From the NCBI GenBank assembly GCA_963965975.1, contig OZ014424.1, positions 4,402,001 through 4,466,000 on the forward strand: a stretch of DNA of 64,000 nucleotides, read 5' to 3'. The notes beneath the pieces are model-generated. The model was given only the letters and a program-made list of their open reading frames with translations, did no database searches and had not been told where the DNA came from. The stretch is from Xestospongia bergquistia. Lineage: Eukaryota > Porifera > Demospongiae > Haplosclerida > Petrosiidae. Of the stretch, positions 427 through 45,280 are shown piece after piece (within the stretch, counting starts at the first letter, position 1; the number at the start of each line of letters is the position of its first letter). A program made the position numbers and the translations under genes.

Positions 427-3400
427 ATGAGTGAAACAAGAGGAAGAAGAACAGGTTGGAGAGGACATCCTAATAGACGAAGAAATTGGCAGCTTCAAGC
501 TGGTGATGAATCTAGTGAGGAAGAGCACGACAATGGTCCATCCCACACACATAAAAGGGGCTATAGTGGTTATACTCATTGTGAGGGCAGGGAAGGACAC
601 AGAGATAGATTTAGAGGTAGAGGTGGTAACAGACGTGGTAAAACAAATGATCGAGCTGATTATGTGTCTAGAGAAAGAGAAAGATCAAGAAGTCCTATTA
701 GTAGAGGTAGGAGGAGTCAAAAAAGAGGGAGGGGCAATTTGCTAGGCAAGTTCACTCACATACATCGACTTGAATTTCGAGATCTTGTTGATCTCACAAA
801 ATGCTCAGCCGCTGATGCAGTTGTCAAATTACATGGAGATTTAAAAGGTTTTCAACATTCTCTTAATAGTTGTAGCAAAGTATCACTATCAGCAAAACCA
901 CGTTACGTTATGATTGTTATTGATATACTTCTTAAAGTATATCAAGCACAAAGTGAAAATAATGAAGCAGCAATGTCTATACTAGCTGAATTCCTTACTG
1001 AAAGATGTGCAGAATTCCATATGCTCTTAAAAGAGTATATAAATACTGATATTAATGCCACAAGTTTCAGAAAGTTGGTTGTATTATTTCGTGGTTTATT
1101 AGATACTCTGCCAACATCAGCATGGCCAGTTCTTCCTATTGATGATATGGTTGATGCTTTGCAATATCAACCATTATTAGATTCAAAGCTTATTGATGAT
1201 ACACATCAGCTGAAAGCTCAGCGAGATGATTTAAGAGAGCAATGCAAACAAGCAAAAAGAGAATACACTGACAGCACAATACTAGTATCTAATGACTGGG
1301 ATAACTCTGAGTACCGATACTTTCCTATTTTGCCTACAATGGATGAAATTTGCTCAGTTGTTTCCCCTCAGCTTAGACCAAGTATTATTCACGGTGCTTA
1401 TACTGGATGGGAGCATTACTATGATGTTCACTTTCGCTTATTGCGTGAAGATTTCCTTGCTCCATTACGAAGAGGAGTGTCTATGCTTTTTCTCGAACAA
1501 AGACTGGGAAGATCTACAGATGTAAACATTTATAAAAGCATGAAAATAGTTGAACCTGAATTTACAGAAGATGGTTTGTGCTATACTGTTCAATTTGATG
1601 TTACTCTTTTCAGGCAGCGTAAAACCTGGGAACATTCAAAACGTTTAATATTTGGTTCTCTTCTTTGTTTTTCTCCTCAACAGGATAACTTTAAAGATAA
1701 CATTTATTTTGCTACCGTCATTAATCGAGATCCTGAGGAGCTTGACAAAGGTATTTTTCAGGTAAAATTTGAAGATGGTTTTCAAATGTTTGAACACATT
1801 CAAAAGACTGTTTTCACAGTAATTGAGTCCAAAGCATACTTTGAAGCTAGTCGTCATATTCTTAGAAGTCTTCAAGTGGCAGAAATTCATACAATGCCTT
1901 TTACTCGGTATTTAATTGAAAACAAGCCTTTACCAGTTCAAATGCCAAAATATTTAGAAGGTAATGCTACACCTTGCTATGATCTACGTTGGTTGTACCC
2001 TAATACCTGTCCTAAACCAATCACAGACAGTAGAATTCTCATGTATAGATGGTTAAGAGAAGGACAATTATTTACTTCTAATGAGCATTTAGTCAACATA
2101 GTTGAAGATAGTGCATGGCCAAGTGCTGATGAACTAGAGCTGGACAAGTCACAACTAGCAGCAATCAAAATGGCTCTTACACAAGAAATAGCTGTAATTC
2201 AAGGACCACCTGGTACTGGTAAAACATATATTGGATACAAAATTGTTCAGACCCTACTTCAAAATCGTCATATTTGGGATCCTACTTCTACTTCTCCAAT
2301 TCTTGTCATGTGTTATACTAACCATGCACTTGATCAGTTTCTTGAAGGCATCATTCATCACAAAATAGATAACGACAGAACTCCAAAGATTGTACGAATA
2401 GGAGGAAGAAGTCGGAGTGAAGAAATACAGAAATGTAATTTAAAAATTGTACGTAAGCAATTAGTTCCTCGTCACAGGCTTGATGATGTCCACAAGCTAA
2501 AAGAAGATATCATTTATACAGCTTCAAAAATCCCTTGGAAAAACCTTAAAAGATTAATTCAGGAATCAGTTAACGAGTACATTGTAGGTCCTGATGGGTT
2601 ATATTGTCTCAAACCAGTAATTAACCCATCTCATTTTTACCAATTAATGCAGCTAGGGAAGTCTTTTGGAATGATGGAGAATTCACTAGAAATATGGCTT
2701 GGTTTATGGGAGGAGCAGTATACACCAGTAAGAAAGGAAGTACACATGGAAGACAACTTAACAGATCAAAAAATGGAAGTAGATGTTAGTTATGATGCTA
2801 TTATTGTCATAAATGAAGAAGAGTCTAATGGAGACAGTAGCAAAGATTTCAATGAAGAGGACATGGTAGAGGTTGTAGGTGAAGCAGAGATTGAAGAAGC
2901 AAACAGAATGCTTGATGATGACAGCTATCATAGAATTACAGTTACTGAAGAGTGTGAAGATAAAGTAGAGGTGGATGATGCTTTGAGTAAATATATCAAA
3001 AGAACACAAATTGAAAAGAAGACTCGTGAAGCTAAAGACAATGTACAACAACAAGCTAATTTTGAAGTAATGTTACAGTTAGTAAAAAAAAGAAAGCCAG
3101 AAGTGAAAAGAATTTTACGACAAATTCAAAACTGTGAACCCCTAAATTCTGAAGATGAAAATACTATTCGTGATATCGTTAAACTAAGTGATCGTGAACG
3201 TTGGCAGCTATTCAAACTTTGGTTTACAAAATATGAGTTAAAATTACATAGCTTAAACCAAACTGGATTTGCTGATTTTGAAGCAGCCTGCCAAAATTAC
3301 AAAAGAGAACAACAAGCACTTGATCGATTTGCTCTTGAACGTGCTGAAGTTATTGGAATGACAACAACAGGTGCTGCTAAATATCAGCACATACTACATT

Positions 3401-6400
3401 TAGTTAAACCAAAAATTGTCATAGTAGAAGAAGCTGCAGAAGTACTGGAATCTCACATTGTATCAGCTCTAAATGCTGGTACCCAACACCTTATTTTAAT
3501 CGGAGATCACAAGCAGTTAAAACCAAAACCAAATGAATATGAGTTAGCCAAAAAATACAACTTAGATGTGTCACTATTTGAACGGCTCATTCGTAATAAG
3601 CTTCCTCATGCTACTCTTGAAATTCAACATCGTATGAGGCCCCAGATTGCCCGCTTAGTTTGCCCTTTTATTTATAAAAGACTAATAAATCATGACATTG
3701 TAAAACAATATGGAGCTGTCAAAGGGTTTGCTAAAAACATGTTTTTCTTTCATCATGAACATCTAGAGTATGAAATTGAGCATTTGCTGAGCCATTCAAA
3801 TGAATACGAGGCCAAGTTTGTTGTTGCTCTGTGTAAACACCTTTTAAACCAAAATTTTAAACCATCTCGAATCACTATCCTGACTGCCTATACTGGACAA
3901 TTACTTAAGATCAGAAACTTGATGCCAAGAAAACAATTTGAAGGTGTACGAGTTATTAATGTAGATAATTTCCAAGGAGAAGAGAATGATATTATTATTC
4001 TGTCTCTTGTACGAAGCAACAATTCTGACAAAGTAGGTTTTCTTAAAGAAGAAAATCGTGTCTGTGTTGCTCTATCTAGAGCAAAAATGGGTTTTTATTG
4101 CTTTGGCAATTTTAAAATGTTACGTAAAGTAGTACCAATATGGGAAGTAATCATGTCTCATGTGTCAAAGGAAGGATGTCTTGGTGAAGCTTTTCCTCTT
4201 TATTGCCATAATCATCCTGAGAAAAAGTATAATATTCAAGAACCAGAAGAGATTGCACAATATTTTCCTGAAGGAGGATGTACAGAATTGTGTTCATATC
4301 GTCTTGATTGTGGTCATAGATGCAGACGTCGCTGCCATATAATTGATTCTGATCACAAAGAGTACAAATGCAACCAGAGTTGTCCTAAACTTTGTAGAAA
4401 TGGTAAGCATCCATGCAAGACTCTTTGCTATGAAAAGTGTCCACCTTGTAAGGAGAGAGTTAGAAAAACATTTCCATTGTGTGAACATAAGCAACTGATG
4501 TTTTGCTTTGAACGGCCAGAAGACCAGCAATGCTTGAGTCCTTGCCCAAAACTTTGTGTGAATAATTTGCATCCATGTAGGGCTCGATGCTATGAAAAGT
4601 GTCCACCTTGTAAAAAGAGAGTCAGTAAAACAATTCCATTGTGTGGACATGAGCAACTGATGTTTTGCTATCAACCACCAGATGACCAGCAATGCTTGAG
4701 TCCCTGCCCAAAACTTTGTGCAAATAATTTGCATCAATGTCCACTCAAATGCTCAGAAAGATGTGAACCTTGTTCAATTAAAGTTGTTCAAACAATACCT
4801 ACTTGTGGACATAAGCAAAAAATGAAATGTCATAATGATCCACAAAGCATAAAATGTATACACAGATGTACTAAAGTCTGTTCTAATAATCATCCCTGCC
4901 AGAAACGCTGCTGGGAGGATTGTGGACTATGTGAAGTAATAGTAGGAAAGATTATGCCTCACTGTAAGCACTTGCAGTACATGCCTTGTCATCTTGATCC
5001 TTCTAAATTTGAATGCCAGGAAAGGTGCTCAAAAATATATGACAATTGTGGTCATCAATGTCCTAAGTTATGTTATGAGCAATGTGACATCCTTTGTCAG
5101 CTACCAAAAAGGAAGGTTGTACCCAAATGCAATCATGTTGAGAGAATACCATGCTATATAGACCTTAAATTATGGAATTGCACAAAACCCTGTGAAAGGA
5201 AATTATGTTGTGGTCATATATGTAAATCTTTGTGTGGCGAGGTCTGTCTTTCAACTAAATGCCAAGAACCTACTACAGTGATGTTGCCTTGTAAGCATTC
5301 AATAGTTGTTGAGTGCAAAAACTCTTCAAAGATTAAAGTTGATGCACTACTACAAGGGTCATATCAATGTGATGAGCCATGTGAGAAAGCACTGAAGTGT
5401 GGTCATAAATGTCGAAAGAAATGTAGTCAACCTTGTACTGATATGTGTAAATTCAGAGTTATGTACCGATGTCGAAATGGTCACACCGCTAAAATACCTT
5501 GTTATGAGAAACAAAATCCAACCCTCATTCCACCTTGTGATAGCCCATGTAATCAAAAGCTTTCATGTGGGCATGTTTGTAAGAATCGATGTGGAGAGAA
5601 CTGCACTGAGTACTGTCCTGAAATTGTGAATAAAAAGTGTCTTTGTGGGCATTGGCATAAAACTAAATGTGGAGATACTGATGGTAAATGTACCTGCACA
5701 AAAGATTGCAATGAAACTCTTAAGTGTGGACATAAGTGCTCAGGCAAATGTCGTGACTGTTTTACTAAACGGATTCATACTCCATGTCCTTTTGAGGTCC
5801 AAATCAATCGATTCTGTGGACACTTTGGTACTGTCCCATGTGTTGGTATGCAAGATCGCTGTACAAAAATATGTCAATTGTCTGTGTGCCCTCATGAAGG
5901 AAAGCCATGCACTCATTATTGTGGGGAAATATGCTCTTATAAATGTACTGAAGTATGTATTAGCGAATGCTTACATCATAAATGTCTTCAATCCTGCAGT
6001 GATATTTGCGAGGAATCTAGTTGTGATAAGCCCTGTTTAAAAACACTTAAATGTCGTCACCATTGTCCTGGTCTCTGTGGGGAGAAATGTCTTAGTACTT
6101 GTATGATATGTGACCCTAAAAAATTTCGGGAAAAAGCTGTGGGCATTGGAAAGAAAGCCAAACTTGAAAGTCATTGTTATATCCAGCTCGATTGTGGTGA
6201 TATGTTTACAGTAAGTTATCTTACTGAACGTTTCAGACCAAAACATACTGAGTCTCATTTGATTGCTCCTCTTGTTTGCCCTAAATGTTCAAAACCTGTG
6301 ATATCACCACATTATTGGAAAATGATTAAAGAAAGAAGAAAAGAAATAGAGGAAGTTAAAGATATTGTTACTGCTTTTCATGGCATCAACCCCGAGTTCA

Positions 6401-7077
6401 ATAATCTAAAAGAGGATGTGATTTTACTATTAATTCGTGAAAATATCACTGTCACATTTTCAAAAAAGGGTTATGCACGACCACTACTGGCTTATAATAT
6501 AGCATTTGATAATACTATTGAATGTGTCTGTGCTATGGAACTATTACTATGCACAGATAATCTACATGAAGCACTAAAAGAGCATGCTTTAGAGCCTAAC
6601 TTGATTAGTCAAGCATATAAATTAGTTCGAGAGGTGGCTTTCATTGTTGCAGACAAGAAAGGAAAATTGTCACCTCAATTGATACATGACATACAAAGTG
6701 AAATTTTTCGTCTCAACCTCACAGCTTTAACAGAACAGATAAAATCAAAACCTTTGATAGTTACTAGTACTGTAGCAATGAGACAACTTGGATCTGTATT
6801 GAGTATGCTCCATCAAATGGAACAAAACCACAACTTGCGACTTACAGCACCACGGTATGAATATAACCTGAGTATTCTTCAGCGTATCCATGAGGAAGAG
6901 CTTAGTTTTTGTCTTGAGCCTTTGGTGACTTTAAATATAACACCACCTCATGTAACAAAAGGGGAATGGTACAAATGTAGTCGAGCTGGTCACATCTTCT
7001 GTGTTCCTGCTAAATACAGTGTTGAACGAAATGACTGCCATGTCTGTCCACATTGCAATAAGGACATATCTACATAG
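427..7077 (+). CDS. ZNFX1: ZNFX1-like SF1 helicase with NFX1-type zinc fingers, 2216 aa
   Basis: A single uninterrupted reading frame. The first ATG is at 427; five sense codons precede it in frame but a TTG start is unlikely. The N-terminus (about residues 1-115) is rich in Arg, Ser and Gly. A UPF1-like superfamily 1 helicase core follows: Walker A GPPGTGKT at about 593-600, motif II VEEAAE at about 1000, GDHKQLKP at about 1026, HRMRP at about 1068, NFQGEENDI at about 1181 and VALSRAK at about 1214. An acidic insert sits between Walker A and motif II. Residues about 1258-1895 are a Cys-rich block with about eleven NFX1-type fingers (CGHxCxxxC pattern). The last 36 residues carry a C-x4-H...C-x2-C-x2-C array resembling the RZ-type finger of ZNFX1 and RNF213. 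Human ZNFX1 is about 1918 aa, an interferon-stimulated double-stranded-RNA sensor; nematode ZNFX-1 acts in small-RNA inheritance. Family assignment is firm; function in this organism is inferred. Confidence 0.95.
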   Translation: MSETRGRRTGWRGHPNRRRNWQLQAGDESSEEEHDNGPSHTHKRGYSGYTHCEGREGHRDRFRGRGGNRRGKTNDRADYVSRERERSRSPISRGRRSQKRGRGNLLGKFTHIHRLEFRDLVDLTKCSAADAVVKLHGDLKGFQHSLNSCSKVSLSAKPRYVMIVIDILLKVYQAQSENNEAAMSILAEFLTERCAEFHMLLKEYINTDINATSFRKLVVLFRGLLDTLPTSAWPVLPIDDMVDALQYQPLLDSKLIDDTHQLKAQRDDLREQCKQAKREYTDSTILVSNDWDNSEYRYFPILPTMDEICSVVSPQLRPSIIHGAYTGWEHYYDVHFRLLREDFLAPLRRGVSMLFLEQRLGRSTDVNIYKSMKIVEPEFTEDGLCYTVQFDVTLFRQRKTWEHSKRLIFGSLLCFSPQQDNFKDNIYFATVINRDPEELDKGIFQVKFEDGFQMFEHIQKTVFTVIESKAYFEASRHILRSLQVAEIHTMPFTRYLIENKPLPVQMPKYLEGNATPCYDLRWLYPNTCPKPITDSRILMYRWLREGQLFTSNEHLVNIVEDSAWPSADELELDKSQLAAIKMALTQEIAVIQGPPGTGKTYIGYKIVQTLLQNRHIWDPTSTSPILVMCYTNHALDQFLEGIIHHKIDNDRTPKIVRIGGRSRSEEIQKCNLKIVRKQLVPRHRLDDVHKLKEDIIYTASKIPWKNLKRLIQESVNEYIVGPDGLYCLKPVINPSHFYQLMQLGKSFGMMENSLEIWLGLWEEQYTPVRKEVHMEDNLTDQKMEVDVSYDAIIVINEEESNGDSSKDFNEEDMVEVVGEAEIEEANRMLDDDSYHRITVTEECEDKVEVDDALSKYIKRTQIEKKTREAKDNVQQQANFEVMLQLVKKRKPEVKRILRQIQNCEPLNSEDENTIRDIVKLSDRERWQLFKLWFTKYELKLHSLNQTGFADFEAACQNYKREQQALDRFALERAEVIGMTTTGAAKYQHILHLVKPKIVIVEEAAEVLESHIVSALNAGTQHLILIGDHKQLKPKPNEYELAKKYNLDVSLFERLIRNKLPHATLEIQHRMRPQIARLVCPFIYKRLINHDIVKQYGAVKGFAKNMFFFHHEHLEYEIEHLLSHSNEYEAKFVVALCKHLLNQNFKPSRITILTAYTGQLLKIRNLMPRKQFEGVRVINVDNFQGEENDIIILSLVRSNNSDKVGFLKEENRVCVALSRAKMGFYCFGNFKMLRKVVPIWEVIMSHVSKEGCLGEAFPLYCHNHPEKKYNIQEPEEIAQYFPEGGCTELCSYRLDCGHRCRRRCHIIDSDHKEYKCNQSCPKLCRNGKHPCKTLCYEKCPPCKERVRKTFPLCEHKQLMFCFERPEDQQCLSPCPKLCVNNLHPCRARCYEKCPPCKKRVSKTIPLCGHEQLMFCYQPPDDQQCLSPCPKLCANNLHQCPLKCSERCEPCSIKVVQTIPTCGHKQKMKCHNDPQSIKCIHRCTKVCSNNHPCQKRCWEDCGLCEVIVGKIMPHCKHLQYMPCHLDPSKFECQERCSKIYDNCGHQCPKLCYEQCDILCQLPKRKVVPKCNHVERIPCYIDLKLWNCTKPCERKLCCGHICKSLCGEVCLSTKCQEPTTVMLPCKHSIVVECKNSSKIKVDALLQGSYQCDEPCEKALKCGHKCRKKCSQPCTDMCKFRVMYRCRNGHTAKIPCYEKQNPTLIPPCDSPCNQKLSCGHVCKNRCGENCTEYCPEIVNKKCLCGHWHKTKCGDTDGKCTCTKDCNETLKCGHKCSGKCRDCFTKRIHTPCPFEVQINRFCGHFGTVPCVGMQDRCTKICQLSVCPHEGKPCTHYCGEICSYKCTEVCISECLHHKCLQSCSDICEESSCDKPCLKTLKCRHHCPGLCGEKCLSTCMICDPKKFREKAVGIGKKAKLESHCYIQLDCGDMFTVSYLTERFRPKHTESHLIAPLVCPKCSKPVISPHYWKMIKERRKEIEEVKDIVTAFHGINPEFNNLKEDVILLLIRENITVTFSKKGYARPLLAYNIAFDNTIECVCAMELLLCTDNLHEALKEHALEPNLISQAYKLVREVAFIVADKKGKLSPQLIHDIQSEIFRLNLTALTEQIKSKPLIVTSTVAMRQLGSVLSMLHQMEQNHNLRLTAPRYEYNLSILQRIHEEELSFCLEPLVTLNITPPHVTKGEWYKCSRAGHIFCVPAKYSVERNDCHVCPHCNKDIST
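4381..4760 (+). repeat. 54-residue (162-bp) tandem duplication inside the NFX1 finger block
   Basis: Related blocks begin at 4381, 4543 and 4705, exactly 162 bp apart: two full copies and the start of a third. Each copy opens with a CPKLC-type knuckle, runs through a YEKCPPCK segment and ends with a DQQCLSPC segment. The exact in-frame spacing and high nucleotide similarity point to a fairly recent duplication that added a zinc-finger module. Confidence 0.85.
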
Positions 7078-7327
7078 TGTTGTAGGACTAAATGCATTTA
7101 TTTGTTATGTTATTACTATCTTGTAGTACTAATAATTGTTTTTACATTATTGTATTAGCTAATTTTGTATTTTACAGTTTTAAAATTTCGTTTAAAAAAA
7201 GTTAATTTATTATTGTCATTAGGGGTGTCACCTTATAAGTATGGCTTCTCACCTACTTAACAAAAACCTCGAGCAAGGGAGTAAAACATTAATTTAGTAA
7301 CTTTAGTTTGAGCTAGAATTGACTGAA

Positions 7328-10300
7328 ATGGCAGAGAAAAGAAGTAATATTGATGTGGAGAAGGTTAGTAGGTTAAAGTGACTTTAACCATCTAACATGT
7401 TTACTTGGCTATTAGGTACTTCAGTCTCTTAATATCAAAGAGAAGCTCAAACGTATTGACTGTCCACCAAAACTTACTCAAATTCTCATGAAATCCAAGT
7501 ATTTCAAAGCCAAAGGAACAGTCTGTTTTGATGACAGTGATGAACGTAAGAAAGTCAGATCATGTAGATGGAATAGCACCTCAATTATTATGCCATTCCA
7601 TCTACATGATCTGTTTGACATAGTATAATATTACTATAAATGTCAAGTACCTCATTTCTAAATGCTCCAGATTTAGTGAACACTGCTGCATTACTGATGT
7701 AGTTTGTACTAATTCTGTTTGCTACATATTGTACGGAAGCCTAGTGGGATAGTCCAAGATCATATTTTCATGCTGTGATCCCTTTTCCTCAAAACCCTCA
7801 ATATTAAGCATTAAAATATGTGGTTTGAGGTTTGGATTGTTCCACTGGTATGAATTGGAATAATTTATGTTACCTATCATTTTTTTCTAGTTGATATGAA
7901 AGAGATTGAGGGTGAATTTATATATGTGGAATTTAAGAGCAAAGGAAGTAAGAATTATATTAGAATATAGGTTTAATAATATATGACCATATAATATATG
8001 GTTGCTTGTATTTGAACTGGCTAAATTAATTCCTTATTGCTATATTGTCAGGATTACAAATGGAGATTGATTAAAATGCCAGATAAAACTCTTGGAAGGT
8101 AGAAAAGAGTGGGCTATGGACTTCCATTCCTTCACCTTACATGAGTGCTGGGCTATGCCCTTCCAACATTTGTCTAGTACATGCAGTGTTGACGCAGCAA
8201 TCATAAAATGACAATGAATCTATAAGTAGTTCCATTATAACACTAATGACCAACTCATAATAAAGTAGACACATTGTCAAGACAAGTAATAAGAGTGCAA
8301 CATTAAGTATGATTCTTCAATCTATGTTCACACGAGGGACTCACTCATAACCACAACATTAATAATTACTTATCTAAATATAGTACCACTATTTTTGATA
8401 GCTCTACCTGGCATTTTAATCACTCATGTTGGATACTTATGCTCCATTCCCATCTTTTCCAGTATACATCTCTGTTACTGTTAACCACATTAAGCAATAC
8501 TACATATTAGTTAACTTAGCTATTGAGTTGTTCTGTAATAGCTTAAATAAAGATGATAAAACAATTCAAATGTAAGATATGTCCCACACTTAATGTAAGC
8601 TGCAATGTTTAAGATTTTCATGAATAGTAATTTTATAAGTGTAATATGTTAACTACAATGCACATATGTTTTGTAGACTTGTTAATTAGTGTAAATTATT
8701 GTTATTGAACTATTGTGGTTCAGTTGTTAATTAGGTCAACTCTATTAGAACAATATTTGTTAATTATTTTTTACTTTACTCTTTTGTTACTCCACTTGTA
8801 TTTAAATGGGTCTCTTGTTTTGTTGAATTAGTTAATAAAAGGTACTTATTTAAGTTGATATCTATGTGCAGCTAACAAGATATCACAATAAGTGCATACA
8901 CTTCCATTACTAGGTCTACTATTACAGTTAACCTGTGAAGACAGTGGTTATATGGATGTCAACAGTTTGAGTAAACAAGAAGGTTAGCTTCCTATAACTC
9001 TATGATAATTTACTTTCTGTTCTTTACAAACCAATTATACAAAGGAAATACAAATCAGGGTTCATACTGAGGGATGGCCTGGGATTTCCCCCTCACGCAT
9101 AATTAGTTTCCTCAGAATTTTAAAGGATGCATGCAGTATTAATACTAAGAGTATACCAATGAATATATTTAACACTAGCTAAAAGTCTTGTGGTACACTA
9201 GAAACAACCACAGGACCTAAAGCATAAAAACCTTACAGGAAAAGTACTGAGTATATCCCAGAACCCTTGGAGTGGTATGCAGCCATAGGCACTTACATTT
9301 GATTGATTGATCTCCTCCCTCCCTTCCCAAAAATCTTGCATGAAATGTCTGAGATCATATACATATATGGTCAGTATCAACAAGTCAAAACATTTACTAG
9401 ACAATAATGTACATTTGTAACCCTGGAAATTGAGTTCAGAGATCATTGATTATAATTAGTTATACCACAGAAAAGCATTAACAAGTAAATGGTTACTTGG
9501 CAACACTAAATTATCAGTCAAACAAGAATACAATAAAGCTGTTATATGGTCTATAGATTATAATGTAAGCTTAGAGTTTCCAGGATGTAGAAATGTTATA
9601 TTTTTACAAGTATCTGTTATTTTGTTCATTCACAGGAACATTACCAACTTCAGAAATCAGTACTACACCTGCTTCAATGGATTCTCCAGAGACTATTTTG
9701 TCTATGCCAGGAGATGATTTGCCTGGACTTGGGGATGTATTATTAACTAATATGATTTGTTTGGGTACTGATATAGAAATCCAAAAATCACAGCAGGCCA
9801 TCTTTGGATCTGACTTCTTTCCACCATCAGATGTTATAAACGAGTGTAGACAAGTTCAACCAATAATAAATGAGGAACTTCTTAAAAGTTTAGATACTAC
9901 TCAGAATAGTTCTTGTACAATTCACTCACCATGGCAACCGACATCAGTTCTTGACTTCAATGATAGTTTAATACATGTGATGAGCCAGTTACTGTCACTC
10001 TCTGAAGGTCAATCATGCACTACAAGGATCATTCATCTTCATAATCACATTCGTGATGATTCTTTTCCATTGTGCTATCTACTTGAGCCTCAATTCTTTC
10101 CCTTGAAGAAACCACTCCTTGTTTTCCCTTGTAGCCTTCAATCTCTAGTTTCCTCATCCACTCAATATATCAATAAGTTGATGCATCGAGTTGCTTTAGC
10201 ATCAACAGCCCACTTTAGTTCACCACATGTCATCATTCCTTTCATTGACTTTTACAACTTCAAATTTTGTACTTGTTTTGGTGATGAGGATTTATCCAGA

Positions 10301-12725
10301 GATGCTTACTCTAAAATTCGATTGAATGTACTTACTAGATGTCATGAAACATTCCGATACAGTAATGAACATCCAAGTATCACATCATTGTTATTGGGAG
10401 AAACACTCAGTCAAGAAATATCTCAAGAAATCTTTTCTCCTGTCACAGCTAACTCTGAGCATTTATCTTGGAATGAGTTTTCTTTTCTAATTTACATAAA
10501 AGCTTGCAGTCGGAGATTCCATCAACCCGTGATATCTTTACCTGATTTTGCTAATGTTGCAGCCTTATTTGCTATTCCTCCAGGAGACATTTGTAATTTA
10601 CTCAAAACATTCCAAACTCTTCAACTTATTTTTTCACTACCAAATTGTGAAACTATTATCTTAGACATGTACTGGTTTTGTTCTTGTCTAACAAAAGTAG
10701 CTGATTTTTCTGAGATAGAGAATTTACAGTTTCCTTGTATGTTTTATCAAGATATTGATCATGTGATGACACTGTCAACAGGATCAGAAGTACTTGGCAA
10801 CTACCTGACACAGGTTTTTGAGCAACATCATTTTATGGCCACTTCTAATTCAGACTATTTCACTCCACTCTTACTTCCATCTGATCGTCAAATCTCTTTT
10901 CCTTGCATCGATTCCATTTACCTATTACCTTGCATTGGAATAATGCCTCCGGGATTTTTTGAAAAGCTAATGGTTCTTTTCTGGAGATCCCCACAACTTT
11001 CTTTAATAAAATGTAAATGTCGCTCTTCAGCTATATATGAGCTTTGTCTGGATGACACTTTTGAAAAGCATTTGAGAATTTACAATCTCATGATCTCTAA
11101 CAAAAAGGGTTTTATCAAAGTATCCTTGTCTAATGCATACAATAGTGATGTGCCGTACTCAACATTCTCTTTAGTGGCATCAATTGCTCTCAAAGAGATA
11201 AAAACTGCTCTAAAACAAATACTACCAAATAACGTAGAAAACTCAATGACCATTTTTTTTGAATGTCATGATGTACGTTGTCAACATTCATCAGAAAAGA
11301 AACATCTTACTAGAGTTCATATCAAACATCTTGCTTGTACTCAACATAGCCATCAAAAACTACAGCTAAATCAACTTCAAGAATCCCAGTCTTTCTGGAT
11401 CAGCCATCTTTATAAGGTATTTGTAATATCATCAAGTGTAGCATTTCTCTAATACATTTCTCTCTTGCTCTCTTCCTTCTAGGATGCCACACATTTTGAT
11501 ATCAGAGAAGGTTTTGTTTTTAAAGGAATATCAAGAATTGTGAGTTTATCACATTAACTGTTTACATTCAGAGCATTACATTTGTGAATTACAACATGTA
11601 CATACATGTAATCTTGGTTAGGTGCCACAAAGGGTTAATATTAAGTGCTTATATCTTCTTTAGCCTAGCTCTTCATCAAATGACGTTGATGTACATTGTC
11701 ATAGTTCTTTTCTGAGGCGACGGAGTGCATCTGTGCCCCTAACCATGACAGAAATAGAAGAACTTAAACAAGAGAGCAGTAGCACTTGTTAGTGTTAATT
11801 TTCAAATTGTATAATGAATTGTTCTCACTTTGGCTACATCTCATTTAGCCTACCTTTGATTATGTCATTTTGCCTTCACAATTAACCCCTAGCCCCTACA
11901 AGATTATAGGCAAAATGATAATTGTAAATATAAAGGAAGAACTAGATGAAATATAATGTAGGCATTAGTGAGAATTGTATATAGGGTCCTTCTTGGTGTA
12001 ACTTCTATGATGATGTAACTTGTACTATGATGATGACATCACTATGTGTCATAAGGTTTGGTTTAGGGTGTAGGTGATGGATTTAGATGATGATGTCATC
12101 ATATATGATGACATCATTATCTGTCATTTAATGATGATGTCATCAGAGTGAAGTTACACCAAGAACCACTCTGTATATATGTATAAACCTTTTTCTTAAT
12201 TATTCATCAATCCATTTAAGCTGAATACTATTGACATTTTGTGCTCCAAAGCATGAATCATGAAATCGATTAACTTATATTTATCTGTAATTATTGTGCA
12301 TGCATTTTATATAAGGAAGAGTGCAGCATCACAGTTCATACAAACTTCATTACTTTTTCACAGATAATGACACCAGTGTGCTAGTGGAAAGATTCCTTCA
12401 TCAGCAATCTCTTAATATATATGACAATCTAGATCTAATATGTCGTGGTGCCCTTTATCAAGTTGGGATACTCAAATATCAGACTGACCTTGATATTATT
12501 GCACAAGGTGAAACAAACCCAGAGTCGTATCGTGATAAAGCCATTGAAACTATAACAAAAGCAGTGACTATTGCAGGAGTTCATGGAGTAATAGCATTAG
12601 TGTCTGCAGTCAAGGCTGACATTGGACATGGAGATCAAGATGATCATGCTGTGTTATATAAATTAATGATAAGAGACCCTAACTACAACAGAATTAAATC
12701 TGAATGGCTTCATCAGTTATTGTGA
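7328..12725 (+). CDS. ROC/COR-like protein, paralog 1, 871 aa (degenerate GTPase, death-fold-like tail)
   Basis: Eight exons rebuilt from GT-AG borders and phase: 7328-7363, 7416-7545, 7891-7947, 8914-8982, 9636-11416, 11483-11539, 11664-11787, 12364-12725. They total 2616 nt, an exact multiple of three ending in TGA, which supports the model. The large exon 5 encodes the body. Near residue 138, LGTDIEIQK sits where a P-loop GxxxxGK[ST] might lie, but the key Gly, Lys and Ser/Thr are replaced. A hydrophobic-strand region follows, then from about 375 (LSW) to 534 (PPGFFEKL) a stretch with the pattern of COR domains of ROCO proteins. Exon 8 (about 752-871) is a separate, probably helical domain. 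No LRR, kinase or membrane segment is visible. The ROC/COR reading is an inference from motif spacing; the family is otherwise unrecognised. It starts 250 bp after ZNFX1 on the same strand. Confidence 0.75.
7556..7613. repeat. Perfect 19-bp inverted repeat in intron 2
   Basis: The arms 7556-7574 and 7595-7613 are exact reverse complements, with a 20-base loop, all inside intron 2 of the first ROC/COR-like gene. The transcript could fold into a short stable hairpin. It may be a remnant of a foldback element or a precursor-like hairpin. Confidence 0.8.
8068..8422. mobile_element. MITE-like element in intron 3
   Basis: A terminal inverted repeat starts TGATTAAAATGCCAG at 8068-8082 and is matched exactly in reverse complement at 8408-8422; similarity continues inward for about 8 more bases with substitutions. 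The roughly 355-bp interior has no open frame. No clear target-site duplication was found, so the class is uncertain. Confidence 0.6.
11984..12172. mobile_element. MITE-like foldback element in intron 7
   Basis: Ends of about 23 bp are inverted copies of each other: GGGTCCTTCTTGGTGTAAC at the left and its near reverse complement at 12150-12172. Both sides are flanked by GTATATA, which may be a TA-rich target-site duplication. The interior is built of ATGATGATGTCATCA-type palindromic words. It lies in the intron before the last exon of the first ROC/COR-like gene. Confidence 0.7.
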
Positions 12726-13067
12726 TTTGTGTCTGATGTGTTGTTTATCATACAGTCTTGTTTGTTTTATTTCTTTGCTTTTTGTATTCATTTAACTATT
12801 GCTAGTTAATATAGATACAACACATGCAAGTAATTCATGGATGAAGCTGTTAGTGTATTCACTACTGTGAGGAAAATGGTATAGCCCCTTGTAATTACTA
12901 CTATTTCCTGTTAGCTGTTAACTATGAATAATATTACAAGCTGTTGTGCGGGTGGAAAGGCAATCTGTTGTGAGTTGCTTACTGTTTTAAAAGGTTGTGA
13001 TGTATGAATTAATAAAGTATATTTCGTTTAGGGTTTATCGTGGTCTTCATTTACCATCAATTTTAAA

Positions 13068-16000
13068 ATGGCAGATAAGAATAGGAGAGACCTAAAAGAT
13101 AAAGTAAGCCAAACAGTTAAAAGGAGTGATGTCATAGATTGTCACTTATAGATGTGTAAGTTTTTGAGTGACAAGAAAAATAGTCTGAGTTGCTCAAAGA
13201 AGTCATTTTCACAATTTATAAAAAATAAAAAAGGCAGAAACAGACAAAGAACACCTTGCTCTGACAGTAAGAATAATGATTCAACTGTATCTTTATGTAT
13301 ATATAAGATTTTGATTCCAATACACAATGAATAAATGGTTTTGACATTAGCTGGCATCTATGATGTGTCATCAAGGAAATTAAATGATGTTTAATATAGA
13401 TATATATTTTGTTGTCAATTATTAGTATTTCACACAAGCCTTTTATTCTTTAAAACAGTTGAACCAATGGAAGATGACTTCGTTTTAGTTCCTGAAGGTA
13501 AGATTCAAATATTATGGTAAAGCTTTATTGTAATATGTTGTACGTACTAATGTAGATATGCTGACTTAGCATAGTACTTTATAAGGCTTTGTTTACACTA
13601 GCAGGGGTTCATACAGGAGGGGGGGGAAGCCCTGGGATTCTGTTGTCAATGTATTACTACTATTAGCTCACTATAAAAATTAATGTAACCTAATAAATGA
13701 TCTAGAACTTTAACCTGTGCCTATGAAAACAGAACTTTTGGTTTTATGATAACAATTGAGCAAAATTTTTTGTTATAGATAGTACAATCACAATAACTTC
13801 CTCTGATGGTTTTGATATTGTTGACGTCGTTCGCATTAGTCGTCCTGAACAAGGTCAGTTTTCTTAGATTTATGTAACTGTAGTAACATTTATATAGTAC
13901 AAACTTACTGACAAATCTTAATGTAATTATAATGCTTTTAATTTTTTACAGAAAGTTTCGTAACTTCAGATGTAGATTTAGAGGCTACAGAATCACCAGA
14001 TACTTTGCCCCGACAAGAAGATGTATCCATAATTAACACTGCATGCTTAGGTAATGCAGTTGAGATTAAAAAACTCCAATTATCGATGTTTGGATCAGAT
14101 ATTACCAAGACTGCTCAAACAACACGTGGTCTTTTCATGCTAGATCATCACAAACGGATACAACCACTTCTAAATGAACACCTTCTGCAAACCCTTGATA
14201 CTGTTGAAAGCAATCTATGCACAGTTTTGCCATCTCCATGGAAACCGGCGTCAGTTTTTAACTTCAATCATTGTTTAAGGCACCAAAGCAGTCAGCTATT
14301 GCCTCACTCTGAAGATGAACCATGTACTTCAAAGATTATACATATTAATAATCACATCTGTGATGATTCTTTTCCGTTGCGTTACCTACTTGAACCACAA
14401 TTTTTCTCCTTGAAGAAACCAGTCCTTGTTTTTCCTTGTAATCTCCAATCTATCACTTCTTCATCCACTCAATATGTTAATGAGTTAATGTATCGAATTG
14501 CTTTAGCATCAACAGCCCACTTCAGTTCTCCACATGTCATTCTTCTTTTTATAGATTTCAATGACCTCAAATTCAATGTTTGTTTTGGTGACAAAGACTT
14601 AGCCAATGATGTCTACAGAGAAATTCAATTTAACATATTGGCTAAATGTCGTGAAACATTTCAATATAATGATCATCCCCCAAACATTACTCCATTTCTG
14701 TTGGAAAATGATGGCTCTCAAGCAATTCCACATGATGTCTTTGATTCTGGCAGTGATTTTTTATCTTGGAATCAATTTTCTTTGCTCGTGTACATTAAAG
14801 CATGCAGTCTAAAATTTAACCTGACCACAATATCTCATATGGACTTTGTTCATATTGCAAGTTTGTTTGCGATTCCTTTAGAAGACACAAATAGTTTGCT
14901 TGAACAGCTCCAGGCCTTACAACTTGTATTTTTGTCACCTAATCGTGAAATCATTATTATAGATACTAATTGGTTTTATTCTTGTCTCTCAAAAGTGGGA
15001 GACCTGTCAAAGTTGGTAAATCCACAGAGCCCTTATCTATTTAATGCTTGTAGTGATGTTGATCATATTTTGACTTGTTCAACTGATGCAGGCATTTCAG
15101 AGGATTTTCTGAAATGTGTTCTTGATCAATACCACCTTGTGGCAACATCCAAGTCATCATCTTTTACTACACTTTTACTTCCACCATATCATCGAAGCTC
15201 GTTTCATTGTATTGATTCAGTGTACTTATTGCCTTGCTTTGGAATAATGCCTCCTGGTTTTTTCGAAAGGCTAACGGTTCTTCTTTGGAGAGCTTCTCGG
15301 CTTTCATTAAAGAAATGCAAATGTCGCTTTTCTGCTATATATGAACTAAATTTGGACAAAAAAGGTTTGAGCACTTACAACATTAAGATCTGCAATGATA
15401 AAGGATTTATCAGAGTCTCCTTGTCTGATGCATATAATAAAGATGTGCCATACACCAAGCTATGCTCAGTGGCTTCTGTTGTTCTTGAAGAAATTAAAAA
15501 AGCTGTAGCACAATTGTTGCCAGTAGAGATGGCATCAAAAGGAAATGTGATGACCATTTTTTTAGAATGTCAGGACTCACGCTGCCGACCTTATCCAGGA
15601 AAGAAACACTTAACTAGAATTTATTCTAAACATCTTGAATGTACTCAGGAGAGTCATTATAAACAGCAGTTGAACCAGCTCAAAGCATCACAGTCTTTCT
15701 GGATCAATAACCTTGTTAAGGTATTATAGACTATTAGTATTATATGTTATATATAATACCTTCTCTCTAGGACCAAAGTGTCTTCAAACAAGATTATGTT
15801 TTTGAAGGACTAACCACAAGACCTGTGAGTTATTTAGTTTGTGGATCATGCAAATCAAATTGTACAAAATACATTATAGGTTGTAATGTAATTACTGTCC
15901 ACATATCAATTATACATAATAGTTTTTTGCATCGTATTGTGTAAAACATAAGCAGAAAATAGAGTATAATTTTTTACTTCTAAAAAGATTTTTGTTTATC

Positions 16001-17007
16001 ATTCCTTTCCAGCCTAGCGCTGTATCTGATGAGCTCAATCTATTCTCCTGTAGTCCTTATTTGAGCCAACGTACTGAGACTGCAAATGAAATAAAAACAT
16101 TTAAACACCAGCATGAAGGTAAATTTTAGTTACCTTACAGGCCAAATGTTTGAATAAGGTGATCATACTTTTACCTGATTTGCAATAAGAGACCACGTTT
16201 ATCGAAACATTTATAAACGCTAACATGTAAACAATTCTGTTTAAAGTATGTTCACTAAATTTTGCATTCAAGTCATGTATTGTTTTTCAACTAAGATATA
16301 AGTTAGTAAGCACCCAGTGAACAAATGTATGGTTGAAAGTTTTGAGATGTTTTAACAACAATAGTCCCTCTTGCAAATCAGGTTGTTAATATGCTAGAGT
16401 TCATTTGAGAGAGAAATATGGGGATTCCCCATCACTCTTAAATTTAGTTTAGCTCTATATAATCAATAAATAAAGAACTGGTAGTTCAAATGATAAAATG
16501 AATTCTTCCCTAAAAGACATTTTATATTTTTTTCAGTCTCTCAATTATTACATTGTGATTGCATGGTTCATAATTAAGCTGCACTACCAATAAAACATTT
16601 TAAATTTGCTATGTAAAACCTCTGCTATTTTTTCTATCACAGATGATGACACTAGTGGACTAGTAGAAAGGTTCCTTCATCAGCAATCTCTTAATATATA
16701 TGACAAGCTAGATCTAATATGTCGTGGTGCCCTTTATCAAGCTGGGATACTCAAATATCAGACTGACCTTGATATTATCGCACAAGGTGAAACAAACCCA
16801 GAGTCGTATCGTGATAAAGCCATTGAAACTATAAAAAAAGCAGTGAGTATTGCAGGAGTTCGTGGAGTAATGGCATTAGTGTCTGCAGTCAAGACTGACA
16901 TTGGACATGGAGATCAAGATGATCATGCTGTGTTATATAAATTAATGATAAGAGACTCTAACTACGACAGAATTAAATTGGAATGGCTGCATCACTTATT
17001 AACATAA
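13068..17007 (+). CDS. ROC/COR-like protein, paralog 2, 852 aa
   Basis: Eight exons: 13068-13103, 13152-13266, 13459-13497, 13779-13853, 13952-15720, 15771-15824, 16013-16118, 16643-17007. The sum is 2559 nt, in frame to TAA. Number and phase of introns match paralog 1. The body in exon 5 is roughly 60-65% identical to paralog 1 where I compared it by eye. The possible P-loop remnant near residue 119 reads LGNAVEIKK: one Lys is kept, but the second Gly and the Ser/Thr are gone. The COR-like stretch ends with PPGFFERL near residue 521. The last exon (about 732-852) is about 89% identical in protein to the corresponding exon of paralog 1, far more than the body. It lies 342 bp after paralog 1, a tandem duplication. 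Function unknown; a nucleotide-binding-dead scaffold or sensor is one possibility. Confidence 0.75.
16173..16383. mobile_element. MITE copy, ACCTGATTTGCAA family
   Basis: This element has inverted ends ACCTGATTTGCAA...GACCAC and matches copies at 42599-42824 and 63019-63260, including interior words such as AAACATTTATAAA and TTTTGCATTCAAG. It sits in the last intron of the second ROC/COR-like gene, in the opposite orientation to the 42.6-kb copy. Confidence 0.75.
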
Positions 17008-28100: not shown

Positions 28101-31100
28101 TTACCATTTGCAGAACAGGATTTACACAATCGAGCCTAATAGAATAGAAAATTCATACTGCATATTGTTTAAAGCTTACATCACTGGCCCATTTTCCACA
28201 GATTGGGAAGACAATGTTCTCAGACACTTCAAGATGTAAAACTTTTGTAAGAGTACTTGCAATTGTCTTTTTGACATCTCCTGCAGACAATTGTGCTTGA
28301 TAATTTTGGAAGTAGGTGTCATAATGTGTGACCACAATAGTGAGTCGCTCACTCTGAAATATCTCTATTAGATAGAGAGACACTTACAAAAAGTTAAACT
28401 GATTTCTTATATTATTTTTGATTTCTGAATTTATTTAGTTATAGTGTAGCCTATGCTTAACATTGTAATAGCTTCCATTATCATCAAGTTGTTCCTATCA
28501 ACTTATTCATAAATCAATCACATATTTGCATAAACTCACGTGGATCTCTTTCATAAATAGTTTTAAAAGCCTCATAATCTTCCTTGTTCTTAATGTCATC
28601 ATATTTCATGACAAAGATGTAAGCAGCTGCTGACTTCAAGTTTAAATCTGATATCTTCTGTAGATCACCTTCTCCCACTTCATTAGAGCCAGGAGTATCA
28701 ACAAGATAGGGTTTAGGATTACCCTGAGTCTGCAATATAGGGAACTCAATCTTTAGTAGGTAGTCCTCTCTTCGAGGCTATAAGCAAAGATAAGTATACT
28801 CTCACCAAGTCATATGAAAAGACAATAAATAAAATTTTATATCTGTCTCTGATGGAACAAGTACATTTATCTATTTGTAAATGACTGAATCAGTGAACAT
28901 TAATAAACAATGTAACATAGTGCCTAGTTTGGACTAACAGCTGGTAGAATTATAATAATTCAAATTTCCATTACTAAATGCACTACTTTTTTCTAAATAC
29001 TGTCTTGGAACAATAATAGTCAACTCTGTTGGCAAATGCATCAAGTATATCATACCACTTTGCTTAGTTATGAATTTTTGTGTAAGCTATAAAATTTAGC
29101 TAATACAATGTCTACTTACCATTATAATTCTGTCTCTAATACCATGATGTAGATCGGAGAGATGTTGTTTTATGTTTTGTATACCAGTAGCAACTGGTAA
29201 GGAGTTGGACCACTTGATAAGTCTAGGCTAATGAAAGAATTGCAAACCATATTCTATATATAGATATACCAACAATGAATATATACTATTGCCATCTATA
29301 CACAAAGATGGCCTGAGTAATATATTCATTGCATGGGAAACTATTTGAGCAATGAAAGCCAAATAAAAACATGACCCCAGAGCAAATAACATATACTCAA
29401 GCATTCTTTGAATTTTCCTTCAGGTCATGAATGTAAATGAGCTTGATTCAATTGTGCTATTACTCAATTACTAGGTTACTTGTGGTGAGTTTCCTGAGTC
29501 AAGACTTTGTTCAACCTTGTCATCATGTTGTATGTAAAGTGTGATAGCTGTCTCTGGTGATATGGAGACTGGTAGAACACTGAATGTAAGACAAAGTGCA
29601 ATTAATATTATACTACGAATGAACTAATATTACAACTTAACTTCTGTCAGAAACAAAGGTCAATATTTATTATCTATCTCTCCATCCATTTGTCCATCAC
29701 TTCCCTGTGTGTGCTTTATTATATCTACTCATTAAACAAATCCACTTGTTTATCAACTTTTTATCCCCTCTTAATTCTGTTAACATTTGTGTTGCTCTAT
29801 TTATTTATACTTACTCTTCACCAATGAGAGCATTAATGAGAGTAGTCTTGCCAACATTGTATCGTCCCACTACACAGATGTACACACTAGAGTCAAGGAG
29901 TTGTTGTTCTACTTTCAACAAAGCATCATATTGAACAAAATCAGGAACATCAAGTTCATTTTCTTGACTATGTACATCCAATACTGTAGATTTCACTCGT
30001 GCCAAAATTTTCTACAGTAAACAGTGACAATTAATAGCAATGTTACTTTAAATATAGGTTAGACAACAGGTTGAAGGTTTTTATTTCAGTTGGAAATTTC
30101 ATATTGAAACCTGTAACAAATTGTCTAACCTAGCCACAAGGCCAGCCCAATACTACAAGTCCAACCCAATTATGATAGAAGTCTCTTTGATATTGATAAG
30201 AAACCTGTCAATGAAATAGAAACCTCAAATCTATAAACAACTGAGTTTTATCAGTAAATAGGCACCTCATGTTTCTTATTAACATTAAAGAGAGTTATTC
30301 ATAAATTGTCTAACCAGATATACTTTGGAATACAACAATAGTTTTAACTTAATTTCTATTATTGAAATACTGCACAATTAGACTTGCTTACTGTTGCTAA
30401 GGGTTTCAGATCAATATTGGGACCACATAGATCTTGTTTCAATGACTCGGCATTATAACTACCAAATATTTCTCCCTTTGATGGCTGTCGTGTAATGTCA
30501 ATGAAGTCTTTGATACTTAATTTGTCAGCTTTCAACCTCTCTAACAAATCAAACAATTGTTTTAAGTTCTCTGCATCTAAACAAAGTTAATAAATATTAT
30601 TGTAGTAATTTTTATTATAATTATTAAGTAAATTAACAATATCTTATTATTTAAATGAGAAGCCAATTTTACCAGATAAAATGTAACATTATAATGTTAA
30701 TTTTATAACTCAATTTGTAGACATAAACAGATTTTAAATGTCTATTACCAATAGTCATGAACTAACCACAAGATGATGAGTCAGCACAAACATAATGTTT
30801 ATATAATGTTATATATACCTTGTATTTTGTCTATTCTTGTGCTCTCAGTTCTTGCTGGTATGACTGGTACATAGTCATCATTAGCAGCATTTATCATTAC
30901 TTCTATAATAATAATTTAGAGCATTATATTAAATTAAGAGGATTTTATTTTTTATTGTGTAAAGTATTTAATACTTCGTTTAATACATTTAAGGAATTTA
31001 AAAGATGCTAAAGTTACTCTTTGTTTAAAAATTATTAGTTACACTCACTAGCATTACTACAAGTTATTTTCTTATCAAATCTTTCTCGTTTACAGAAGCT

Positions 31101-31138: not shown

Positions 31139-31572
31139 CTTGCCGGAACTTTTTTGTAATCAATTCAGCATTTTAATAATTACTTAATAACGAAACAATT
31201 TATTAACAATATATAAACAATTTGTCATTCATTGTTAACAATCAAAACTATTAACCGGATATATGATTATCGGTGTAGTGTATTTCTATGAGTATAGTAA
31301 TTTGAACCATTTAATACTATTATAGTCTACTCCCACTCTATAATACATAACAATACATGCATGCTAATAATAAATTTGTTTGACTGTTTCAATTTATAAC
31401 ACTTCAATGCAACATAATAAATTTTAATATCAAAGAACAAAATAGTTAAACTAATTCTATCACTGATACTGATTACTAGGCAAAGAAAAAATTAAGAGTA
31501 AATACTCTTTTTATTTTCATTATTAAATGATATTTTAGTCAAAACGTTAGTTAGTTACATTTAGTTATGTAG

Positions 31573-38638: not shown

Positions 38639-38987
38639 ATTGTGGTCTGACTTTAATATTGAAACAGGAATATCAGCGTCATCATGACAGCTACTTGCAT
38701 ATTGAAACAGCAACATCAACATCACTATCACAGCACTTAAATATTGAAACAGCAATATTACCATCATTATCACAGCTACTTGAGTACATGTGTACTGTTT
38801 ATTGCACATTTAACTAAATCCACTTGTTGGTTTTGGCAGCTATCTTAGAGACACAGGCATTCTTTTGTATACATATCATATCTTTGTATACATGTCATAT
38901 CAGTTATACAAAATTAGTTCAGCAGCAAGAAAAAATATATTTCCAGATGTCATGTCACGCACACACACACACACATGCACACTTTAA

Positions 38988-39295
38988 CTATTTAGCCTGT
39001 TCTACAATTGATAGTTGAGCAGACAAACGAACAAAATGTTCTTTAAATACTACACATTTCTTCTTTTTCTGTTTCTTCACTAACAATTTCTCCTATATAT
39101 AAGTAACAACTGTTATGATACTGTTAACACATGAATTAATGATACCTTATTTTCATTTAGTTCTTCTAATGATTTCAGTTGTCCCTGCTCTTCAATATAA
39201 CTGATAAAAAGTCTTATATCAGTTACCACTAAGCGACAGTATGATTTAAAGAAATACTATGTATGTATATTTGTGTATGAGAGAGGTAGATAGAT

Positions 39296-39362
<67 letters not shown>

Positions 39363-42300: not shown

Positions 42301-45280
42301 CTACAGTTATCTATTTTAGAGTATAATATTAACTTTGATTCTCAATACATAAAGATTCATTCTTCTAACATAGCTATTTTATAAGCATGCATTAGTAATA
42401 ACTTACCATAATTGTTTTTTCTCTAATACCAAGATGTAGATCTGTGAGATGCTTTTTAATGTTCCCTATACCAGTAGCAACTTGTGCTGATGTAGACCAA
42501 TGCAAGAGTATAGGCTAATAAGAAAATGATATAGACACCTAATTAATTCTGTGTACAAAAACTATATTAACATTTTAAAAATTATATTAATATATGTGAC
42601 CTGATTTGTGAAAAGGAACCATTTTTGCTAAAACATCTCAAAACATACAGTTGCTGTGTACAAAACTATAGATTTTTCCCTGTCTGTTTACTAAGTTATA
42701 TCTTAGTTGAAAAACAATACATGTCTTAAATGCAAAATTTAATAAACATGGTTTAAACAGATTTGCTTACATGCTAGTGTTTATAAATGTTTTGATAAAA
42801 GTGGTCCCTTATTGCAAATCAGGTCAGATATTTTTATAGTAAAATCAGTACACACTGATACACTAAAAGACCTGGTATATTGAATAACATGTTCATTTTA
42901 GGAGGAGCTAGTTAAATATACTATATCCAATTTGAGTTTGATCCCAGGCTCAGTGCTATATCTCAGGCAAGCTGAAGAGAAATGGTTTGTACCATGAGCA
43001 CATCATTAACGTTGAAGAGTGCTTTAACCTCAGGGAAAGAACTAGATAGGTTCTTACTTCAGGCTTGTTCTTTGTTTTGATGATGCTTTGTTCAGTGATC
43101 TCATCATGTTGAATATAAAGTGTAGAAGCTGTCTCTGGTGATATTGACGTCGGAAGAACTCTAAAAAGAACATAAAATATCATGTAAATAAAGAGGAATT
43201 ATTGGAAGCACATACAGCAATTAAGACATAGTTTAGTGCTTATATTATCATTCTTTTATCAATTCAAACTTTTTGTTACAATATACTGTTAAATAGATTT
43301 GTTGTTTTAACTGATCCATAGTCACATAGCTTGCATGCATCTCCACAAAATGTTTTGAAAAGGAACAATAACAAACACAGTTATGATTACTAATTACTAT
43401 GGAACTTTATAACTAATGTACTTAAACTAACAACTTCTCTATATGTATGTAGTATGTAGGGATGCCCTATTATAATTCCATAGTAACAATCCTTACACAC
43501 AGGCCCAGAATCTTATATTATCTAACTAATGAGATGTTAAATAGTATCTCCATAACTATATGATCATCAACTAGTATATTTTAGTTATTATAGTATGTAA
43601 TATTTACTACTTTGCAGCATCTTGTCCTGTGCTATATGCAGCAATGGGTTAGTTTAGATTGCTATTAATGTGATACAATAATGTTTTACATTTTGCAATA
43701 GCAAACATTTTATTAGACATTATTTTTCAAAAATTTTATATTAAATTTACTTACTCTTCACCGATGAGAGCATTAATGAGAGTACTCTTGCCAACATTGT
43801 ATCGTCCCACTACACAGATGTACACACTAGAGTCAAGGAGTTGTTGCTCTACTTTCAACAAAGCATCATATGGAACAAAATCAGGAATTTCAAACTCCTT
43901 TTCTTGACTACGTACATCTAATACTGTAGATTTCACTCGTGCCAAAATTTTCTACAGCAAATAGTAAAATTAAGAGATCAGTTAATCAATTATTTAACAA
44001 TTAATTATAACAATATTTTAATAACATTAGATTATTTGAAACATGCATAAATTTACATGCTAAATACAATGTAGCTATAATACATCAACTAAGAGTATCC
44101 ATGTTACTTATGTACTACAAATTCTGCATGTACATAGGCACAAGTGCTATAAACAACAATATTCTAGTCATAATATTGTGGTCTCTGGGGATATCTAAGA
44201 ATGCAATAACTTTACTTACTGCAGCTAAACTTTGTATATCAGAACAGATATCAAGTTCCAATGTCTCATCATTGAAAGCAAGTTCCTCAAGTTTTGGTGC
44301 CCAAGCAATATCCTTGAAGGGCTGAATGTTTAAGTCAGTATCTTGCAATTCTTCTACTAACTGATTCAGTTCTACTAAGGACTCCACATCTGTAAACAAG
44401 ATAGAACTCAATAAAATAAACATCATTGTTTTCATTAAATTGAAAATAAATATAAAATAGTGATATTCCGTGAACAGATAATTGTTATTAAAGCTAATGT
44501 TTAAATAATGAATTTAAAAAAATAACCATTAAAATTAATTGATGACATAGCAAGTTGACATAGGCTCTAAGCACATTACACATGTGTATTTTGAAACATG
44601 CACTTAAGGTAAAACTAATTCACTTCCTCACAGTTGTCATTAACTACCAGTACATCTACTGTGACAGTCATGATACTAACAAGGTATTTGTGACCTTTAT
44701 TTAAAAGGAGATGATGGGAAAAAATATTTCATAAAACAATTTAAATAGCATATAGAGAATGCAGATTCCTCAGTTATCTATCTACAATCCATGTTAATAC
44801 AGGTTATAGCATGGACAACATGACTGAGTAATATTTTTCATTAGATCATTACAACAATTAGGTAATATACTTAGAATAAAAAAGCAAGCAAAATGCTATT
44901 ATACTAAGCATTACAATAATGACTGTGTGTGTGTGTAAGACATCCTAGACATTCAAGCCTGTAGATAAACTTAAGAAAGTATGCAAACAATATCTAATAC
45001 ATATTACATTGAATATCTATTATAAATCAAAGTTAATTAGCTATAGACCTGTATGTCTCATAAGCAATCCAAAATTCCTCATTATATCGTGTATATGGTA
45101 CATCAATCAATATATACATAATATTATTACCTTGTATGTTCTCAAATTTTCTGCTGTGCTCTGTTCTTTTAGTGATAGGTTCACTGTCATTGAGAAGTTT
45201 TTCTAGTAAAATTAAAACATTACGTCAGTCCGTTTAAGTCGAGTGTTATGTACGTATATAATCTTACCCAGAGAAGCCAT
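38988..45280 (-). CDS. Dynamin-like GTPase, array member D, 779 aa (most diverged copy)
   Basis: Nineteen exons: 45280-45268, 45202-45131, 44389-44220, 43951-43755, 43160-43058, 42514-42407, 42242-41996, 41834-41650, 41601-41378, 41246-41116, 40984-40845, 40650-40548, 40498-40319, 40196-40109, 40047-40012, 39776-39747, 39696-39600, 39256-39146, 39092-38988. Total 2340 nt, in frame to TAG. The P-loop is GRYNVGKST (about 134-142), with Ser where the others have Thr; both are allowed in GTPases. DTPG and THYD are present. Exon 9 carries an acidic insert (EEDNDASDLDELEDKE). Exons 13-14 differ strongly from the other copies: the FGRLRSAAA segment is replaced by a Cys-containing one, and the VGD(D/N)D acidic segment by GKLQYEDFES. 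The gene is nearest to the array's upstream border, 230 bp from CTF8. Confidence 0.87.
39303..39352. repeat. (GA)n microsatellite
   Basis: About 25 GA units in the last-but-one intron of GTPase gene D. The long Leu/Ser open frame across it on the minus strand is an artefact of the dinucleotide repeat. Confidence 0.95.
42599..42824. mobile_element. MITE copy, ACCTGATTTGCAA family
   Basis: It begins ACCTGATTTGTGAAAAGG and ends, in reverse complement, ACCTGATTTGCAATAAGG. The interior shares words with the copies at 16173-16383 and 63019-63260, such as TAAAACATCTCAAAACATAC and TTTATAAATGTTTTGATAAA. It lies in the intron between exons 5 and 6 of GTPase gene D. Confidence 0.8.

Follow-up and report, generated by a model that had tools for sequence, protein, structure and literature searches.

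Do genes of defence-type families that lie side by side in a sponge genome share a defence role, or is their proximity accidental? The question is raised by a 64,000-nucleotide stretch of Xestospongia bergquistia contig OZ014424.1 (C14:4402001-4466000, hereafter the window; the genome comprises 146 Mb in 21 contigs), in which an initial annotation had proposed an innate-immunity neighbourhood of one ZNFX1 gene, two ROC/COR-like genes and four dynamin-like GTPases. We favour, at a probability of about 0.55, a reading in which these genes form the right-hand part of a ∼ 79-kb intracellular defence-type gene cluster that grew by local duplication, was partly homogenised by gene conversion and acts in cell-autonomous immunity.

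Gene content and extent of the cluster

Seven gene models were built by hand, relying on open frames, GT-AG splice sites and consistency between paralogs. The adjacent genes claimed at window positions 427-45280 are all there, complete and intact-looking: the frames are open, begin and end with start and stop codons, and any introns follow the GT-AG rule. They comprise one ZNFX1 gene, a tandem pair (R1 and R2) and four tandem genes for dynamin-like proteins (DLP_A-D):

427-7077 (+), ZNFX1: single exon, 2216 residues; gene model
7328-12725 (+), R1: 8 exons, 871 residues; gene model and COR profile comparison, no Pfam match
9636-11416 (+), R1 long exon with putative COR-like region: profile comparison with COR proteins of the same genome
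13068-17007 (+), R2: 8 exons, 852 residues; tandem paralog of R1, gene model
13952-15720 (+), R2 long exon
16643-17007 (+), R2 last exon
12364-12725 and 16643-17007 (+), C-terminal domain of R1 and R2 (last exons): 120 residues, copies 89% identical
24706-17819 (-), DLP_A: 17 exons, 754 residues; gene model, Pfam Dynamin_N 2.6e-16
31138-25121 (-), DLP_B: 17 exons, 748 residues; gene model, Pfam Dynamin_N 2.9e-15
38638-31573 (-), DLP_C: 17 exons, 751 residues; gene model, Dynamin_N match
45280-38988 (-), DLP_D: 17 exons, 759 residues; gene model, Dynamin_N match

Intergenic space is as scant as described, with gaps of 250, 342, 811, 414, 434 and 349 bases between successive coding regions. The 45-kb neighbourhood stands as a run of seven genes but not as the full cluster, since the run continues upstream of the window with three further ZNFX1 genes and three GBP-like genes, to about C14:4368098. 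The whole spans ∼ 79 kb and 13 genes (three GBP-like, four ZNFX1, R1/R2 and four DLPs), and ends on the right at Ctf8, EMC6 and Mss4, whose open frames lie within 4 kb of each other. Rfam and tRNA scans of the 64-kb window were empty.

All three upstream GBP-like genes match the GBP GTPase domain PF02263 over the cut-off. The helical domain PF02841 is over the cut-off in one of them and weak in a second (E 0.03-0.05); the third was scanned in part. On these domain matches the three genes are probably GBP-like, with atlastin as a formal alternative. A separate array with eleven GBP-domain matches was seen at G000:C3:1516-1597 kb.

Family identities of the window genes

The ZNFX1 identity is confirmed by the Pfam ZNFX1 domain PF25396 (E 4.2e-30) and by a superfamily 1 (SF1) helicase core (AAA_11 and AAA_12); an RZ-type zinc finger was sought in the protein and no qualifying match was found. 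In mammals, ZNFX1 is described as binding viral double-stranded RNA and signalling through MAVS (PMC8787094). The window gene belongs to a four-copy array on C14, the other three copies lying upstream. A fifth ZNFX1 lies on C3, within G000:C3:2127583-2148430; ∼ 8 kb from it, a large open frame matches COR-A and, by eye, carries ankyrin-like repeats, and further COR-A matches occur nearby at 2074-2101 kb. At C14:4665647-4666198, a strong AAA_12 helicase match falls in a single open frame of 2007 codons that is missing from the list of ZNFX1-domain matches.

That the next family consists of four dynamin-like GTPases also proved correct: all four match Dynamin_N (best Pfam value 1.8e-17) and carry the G1, G3 and G4 motifs GRYNVGKT/S, DTPG and THYD/THFD (GRYNVGKT, DTPG and THYD in DLP_A). 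Their 17 exons follow in matching order and the other three are 67, 61 and 54% identical to DLP_A. Outside Pfam, the GTPase region matches NCBIfam CrfC (1.8e-14) and DynA (1.1e-9), PADLOC LeoA (1.1e-9) and BDLP in the PDB (3.2e-4), and E. coli CrfC is 24% identical to DLP_B over residues 117-424. Library and phmmer scores favour bacterial DLPs, but NCBIfam and PADLOC are bacterial collections and the bacterial phmmer set was picked by a shared motif. The ribosome GTPase Der scores equal to DynA against the DLPs, on the P-loop alone. Within the sponge genome, phmmer searches with the four DLPs all missed the locus L001, classical-dynamin-like by eye, which reached 21% in hhalign; a second locus, L005, reached 84%, over 36 P-loop columns. 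The label 'Mx-like' was rejected, there being no Dynamin_M or GED, as was a relationship between the DLP N-terminus and the termini of the R proteins (hhalign probability 0.1). Bacterial DynA is reported to delay phage lysis (PMC8844932).

R1 and R2 are 55% identical. To the eye, the long exon of each looks like the COR portion of ROC-COR proteins encoded in this genome. Comparison of R with one single ROC-COR protein found no similarity, and an alignment was obtained with a five-protein profile alone, the proteins having been hand-picked from the match list of the same genome. In hhalign this profile aligns with R over 174 columns (probability 96.1%, score 75) versus scores of at most 27.9 for 100 column shuffles, 15.6 for the reversed alignment and 12.7 for ZNFX1 and DLP_A. 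We therefore regard R1/R2, with moderate confidence, as COR-like by profile comparison. It is quite unlikely that they are instead an orphan family unrelated to COR, with a profile similarity that arose from composition by chance. Such a family would fit the empty Pfam result (nothing up to E 10), the searches of solved structures, which stayed at chance level (E 2.4 and 0.18), the single COR sequences, which score 16.2-27.5 against R with probabilities of at most 4.4%, and HMMER, where the five-sequence profile reaches just E 0.0099 (R1) and 0.018 (R2), whereas 500 shuffles gave 0.13 at best; the profile-profile score, far above its shuffled and reversed controls, speaks against it. Full ROC-COR identity was rejected since the GTPase motifs are absent; of the designation 'ROC/COR-like', the COR half thus has moderate support and the ROC half is not visible as a GTPase.

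A genome search with R1 gave nine matches, to R1, R2 and a relic only. COR-A has 148 matches genome-wide and none in the window, a large expansion of COR proteins in this genome; many of the matches fall in single open frames of ∼ 700 codons that are arranged in tandem on C10, C11 and C12. Neither protein contains Pfam-detectable repeats, and their C-terminal domain has no Pfam match at E values up to 10 and matches PDB chains only at chance level (E ≥ 1.1). Just behind R1 exon 2, at ∼ 7555-7615, a short inverted repeat with arms of ∼ 17 bases was noticed by eye; it is possibly a small mobile element. ROCO (ROC-COR) proteins of brown algae have been proposed as immune receptors (PMC11378527).

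Duplication, selection and probable gene conversion

Six of the seven genes are tandem paralogs, as the initial annotation had it (R1/R2 and the DLPs, at the identities given above). Across seven paralog pairs, nonsynonymous divergence (dN) is 0.21-0.33 and synonymous divergence (dS) 0.57-0.89; the resulting dN/dS of ∼ 0.34-0.40 points to purifying selection. Conversion was tested at codons that encode identical residues in both copies, in 110 exon-by-pair tests with Bonferroni correction. Two of the 110 pass, R1/R2 exon 8 (p 3.2e-13) and DLP_B/DLP_D exon 4 (p 2.5e-5), so that the suspected gene conversion gains support in both tandem families, at a single exon of each:

12364-12725 (+), R1 last exon: likely conversion tract, common to R2 16643-17007; synonymous difference 0.10
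29815-30011 (-), DLP_B exon 4 (P-loop exon): likely conversion tract, common to DLP_D 43755-43951; synonymous difference 0.09

Between R1 and R2, the synonymous difference of 0.10 in the last exon compares with 0.59 in exon 5, and the flanks of the last exon are 10-55% identical in ungapped 20-base steps; this flank comparison covers the R1/R2 tract. Gene conversion confined largely to one exon per tandem family is the simplest reading.

A possible shared defence role, accident and known systems

The juxtaposition of defence-type genes suggests a shared defence role. The idea of an immune neighbourhood gains because GBP-like genes and the four-copy ZNFX1 array directly adjoin the window genes; it loses by the best matches of the DLPs being bacterial in the libraries searched, by their lack of the other dynamin/Mx domains and by the missing ROC GTPase motifs. 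An immune role is plausible from family identity, from co-location and from what has been published on how these families respond in other organisms. With protein roles taken from their families, the ZNFX1 helicases would bind RNA that is double-stranded or aberrant and trigger or adjust a response, GBPs and DLPs would form assemblies with GTP on membranes that are damaged or enclose pathogens, remodelling or sealing them, and R1/R2, with a putative COR-type fold and no recognisable GTPase, may be a scaffold or regulator. The cluster as a whole would then serve cell-autonomous immunity, perhaps under shared regulation.

Published responses are consistent with such a role in part. In Nematostella, the genes that respond to poly(I:C) include GBPs (PMC13319465, PMC8476169). 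In the sponge A. aerophoba, three dynamin-family transcripts changed after microbial elicitors, two up and one down (PMC6208332), and in H. panicea GTPases changed after lipopolysaccharide, the relevant passages of PMC8242945 containing neither the term GBP nor dynamin. The corresponding passages of PMC12465263, PMC8242945 and PMC11229196 contain no ZNFX1/NFX1, dynamin or GBP. No description of such a ZNFX1/GBP/dynamin-like cluster was found in the literature searched, which excluded preprints and most subscription papers.

Several observations weigh against a defence cluster. The DLPs have bacterial CrfC as their best match outside Pfam, and Dynamin_M, GED and PH are absent among the Pfam families that any of the four matches up to E 1. 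R1/R2 have no Pfam Roc match, P-loop or D-x-G/A-G-Q motif. In the 50 kb read at the C3 ZNFX1, neither R nor DLP genes occur, and most GBP matches lie elsewhere (C3 1516-1597 kb, C2, C11 and C8); linkage of GBP, ZNFX1, R and DLP genes is therefore not obligatory. ZNFX-1 of C. elegans takes part in inherited RNA silencing (review PMC11959080), and in A. aerophoba the kind of dynamin that changed is unstated in PMC6208332 and one of the three transcripts fell. To gauge chance, 2 ZNFX1, 8 GBP and 8 dynamin loci were placed uniformly and a 60-kb radius was drawn around one ZNFX1 locus. A GBP and a dynamin locus both fell within it in ∼ 1 of 10,000 trials, and each alone in ∼ 1.3%; these values were computed after the cluster was seen and are a guide only, assume uniform positions that genes do not have, and use the analyst's own locus counts, which include weak matches and one C5 place counted in both families. 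The family counts are lower bounds, the genome Dynamin_N search having omitted the four window DLPs (their domain is split by introns).

An alternative is that tandem arrays of unrelated families merely happen to lie next to each other in a compact genome. The DLPs would then have everyday functions at membranes or organelles, and ZNFX1 would serve RNA silencing or RNA quality control, as the C. elegans role would allow. The C3 ZNFX1 without R or DLP neighbours, the GBP matches elsewhere and the likewise closely spaced Ctf8, EMC6 and Mss4 frames all fit an accidental neighbourhood. We nevertheless hold it to be somewhat unlikely: GBP, ZNFX1 and DLP loci would rarely come together under uniform placement (1e-4, post hoc), and the cluster has undergone repeated tandem duplication and conversion, events seen more often in immune gene families than in housekeeping ones. 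The silencing role of C. elegans ZNFX-1 (PMC11959080) would suit a small-RNA or transposon surveillance module of ZNFX1 copies and R proteins, with DLPs and GBPs as bystanders; no Argonaute or RNA-directed polymerase was found among the scanned frames (part of the cluster's frames), and we judge this very improbable. The defence-type cluster remains our preferred reading. A bolder version of it, which we consider unlikely, is a physical 'defence island' in an early-branching animal, a counterpart of bacterial defence islands in which ZNFX1, GBPs, bacterial-type DLPs and a GTPase-less COR pair are co-regulated and act jointly, the DLPs either deriving from bacterial anti-phage dynamins or having converged on them. 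Were this true, one locus of an early-branching animal would unite ZNFX1 and GBPs with a dynamin family of bacterial type, an older, linked ancestor of the vertebrate interferon-stimulated gene set would become an askable question, and so would the use of bacterial-style dynamins in animal defence.

Beyond the right-hand end of the cluster, at least six similar cysteine-containing open frames, most beginning VYCDMKGTHCDGKGGWTRVAYLN and fibrinogen-like by eye, occur in a row (window 51263-51970; C14:4466117, 4477028, 4477834, 4482069 and 4484223, in L019 and L020); two were scanned without a Pfam match and one was searched without a PDB match. Low-complexity repeats that translate into short repeated peptide units lie at window 53275-54672 (C14) and at L024 6721-7395 (C3).

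Among known systems, ROCO proteins share with R1/R2 the putative COR-like region, whereas R1/R2 lack the P-loop, the D-x-G/A-G-Q motif and Pfam-detectable repeats and carry a C-terminal domain without known relative. The likeness of the DLPs to bacterial CrfC, DynA, LeoA and BDLP is confined to the GTPase region; unlike these proteins, the DLPs are animal genes of 17 exons, with an N-terminal part of ∼ 100 residues that has no match and without any stretch of mean hydropathy ≥ 1.5. With classical dynamin, Mx and GBP they share the Dynamin_N fold family, and GBP-like genes adjoin upstream, whereas the Dynamin_M, GED and PH domains of classical dynamin/Mx are not among their Pfam matches up to E 1. 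The sponge ZNFX1 has in common with the mammalian double-stranded-RNA-binding SF1 helicase and with C. elegans ZNFX-1 the ZNFX1 domain, the AAA_11/AAA_12 core and a long cysteine-rich region.

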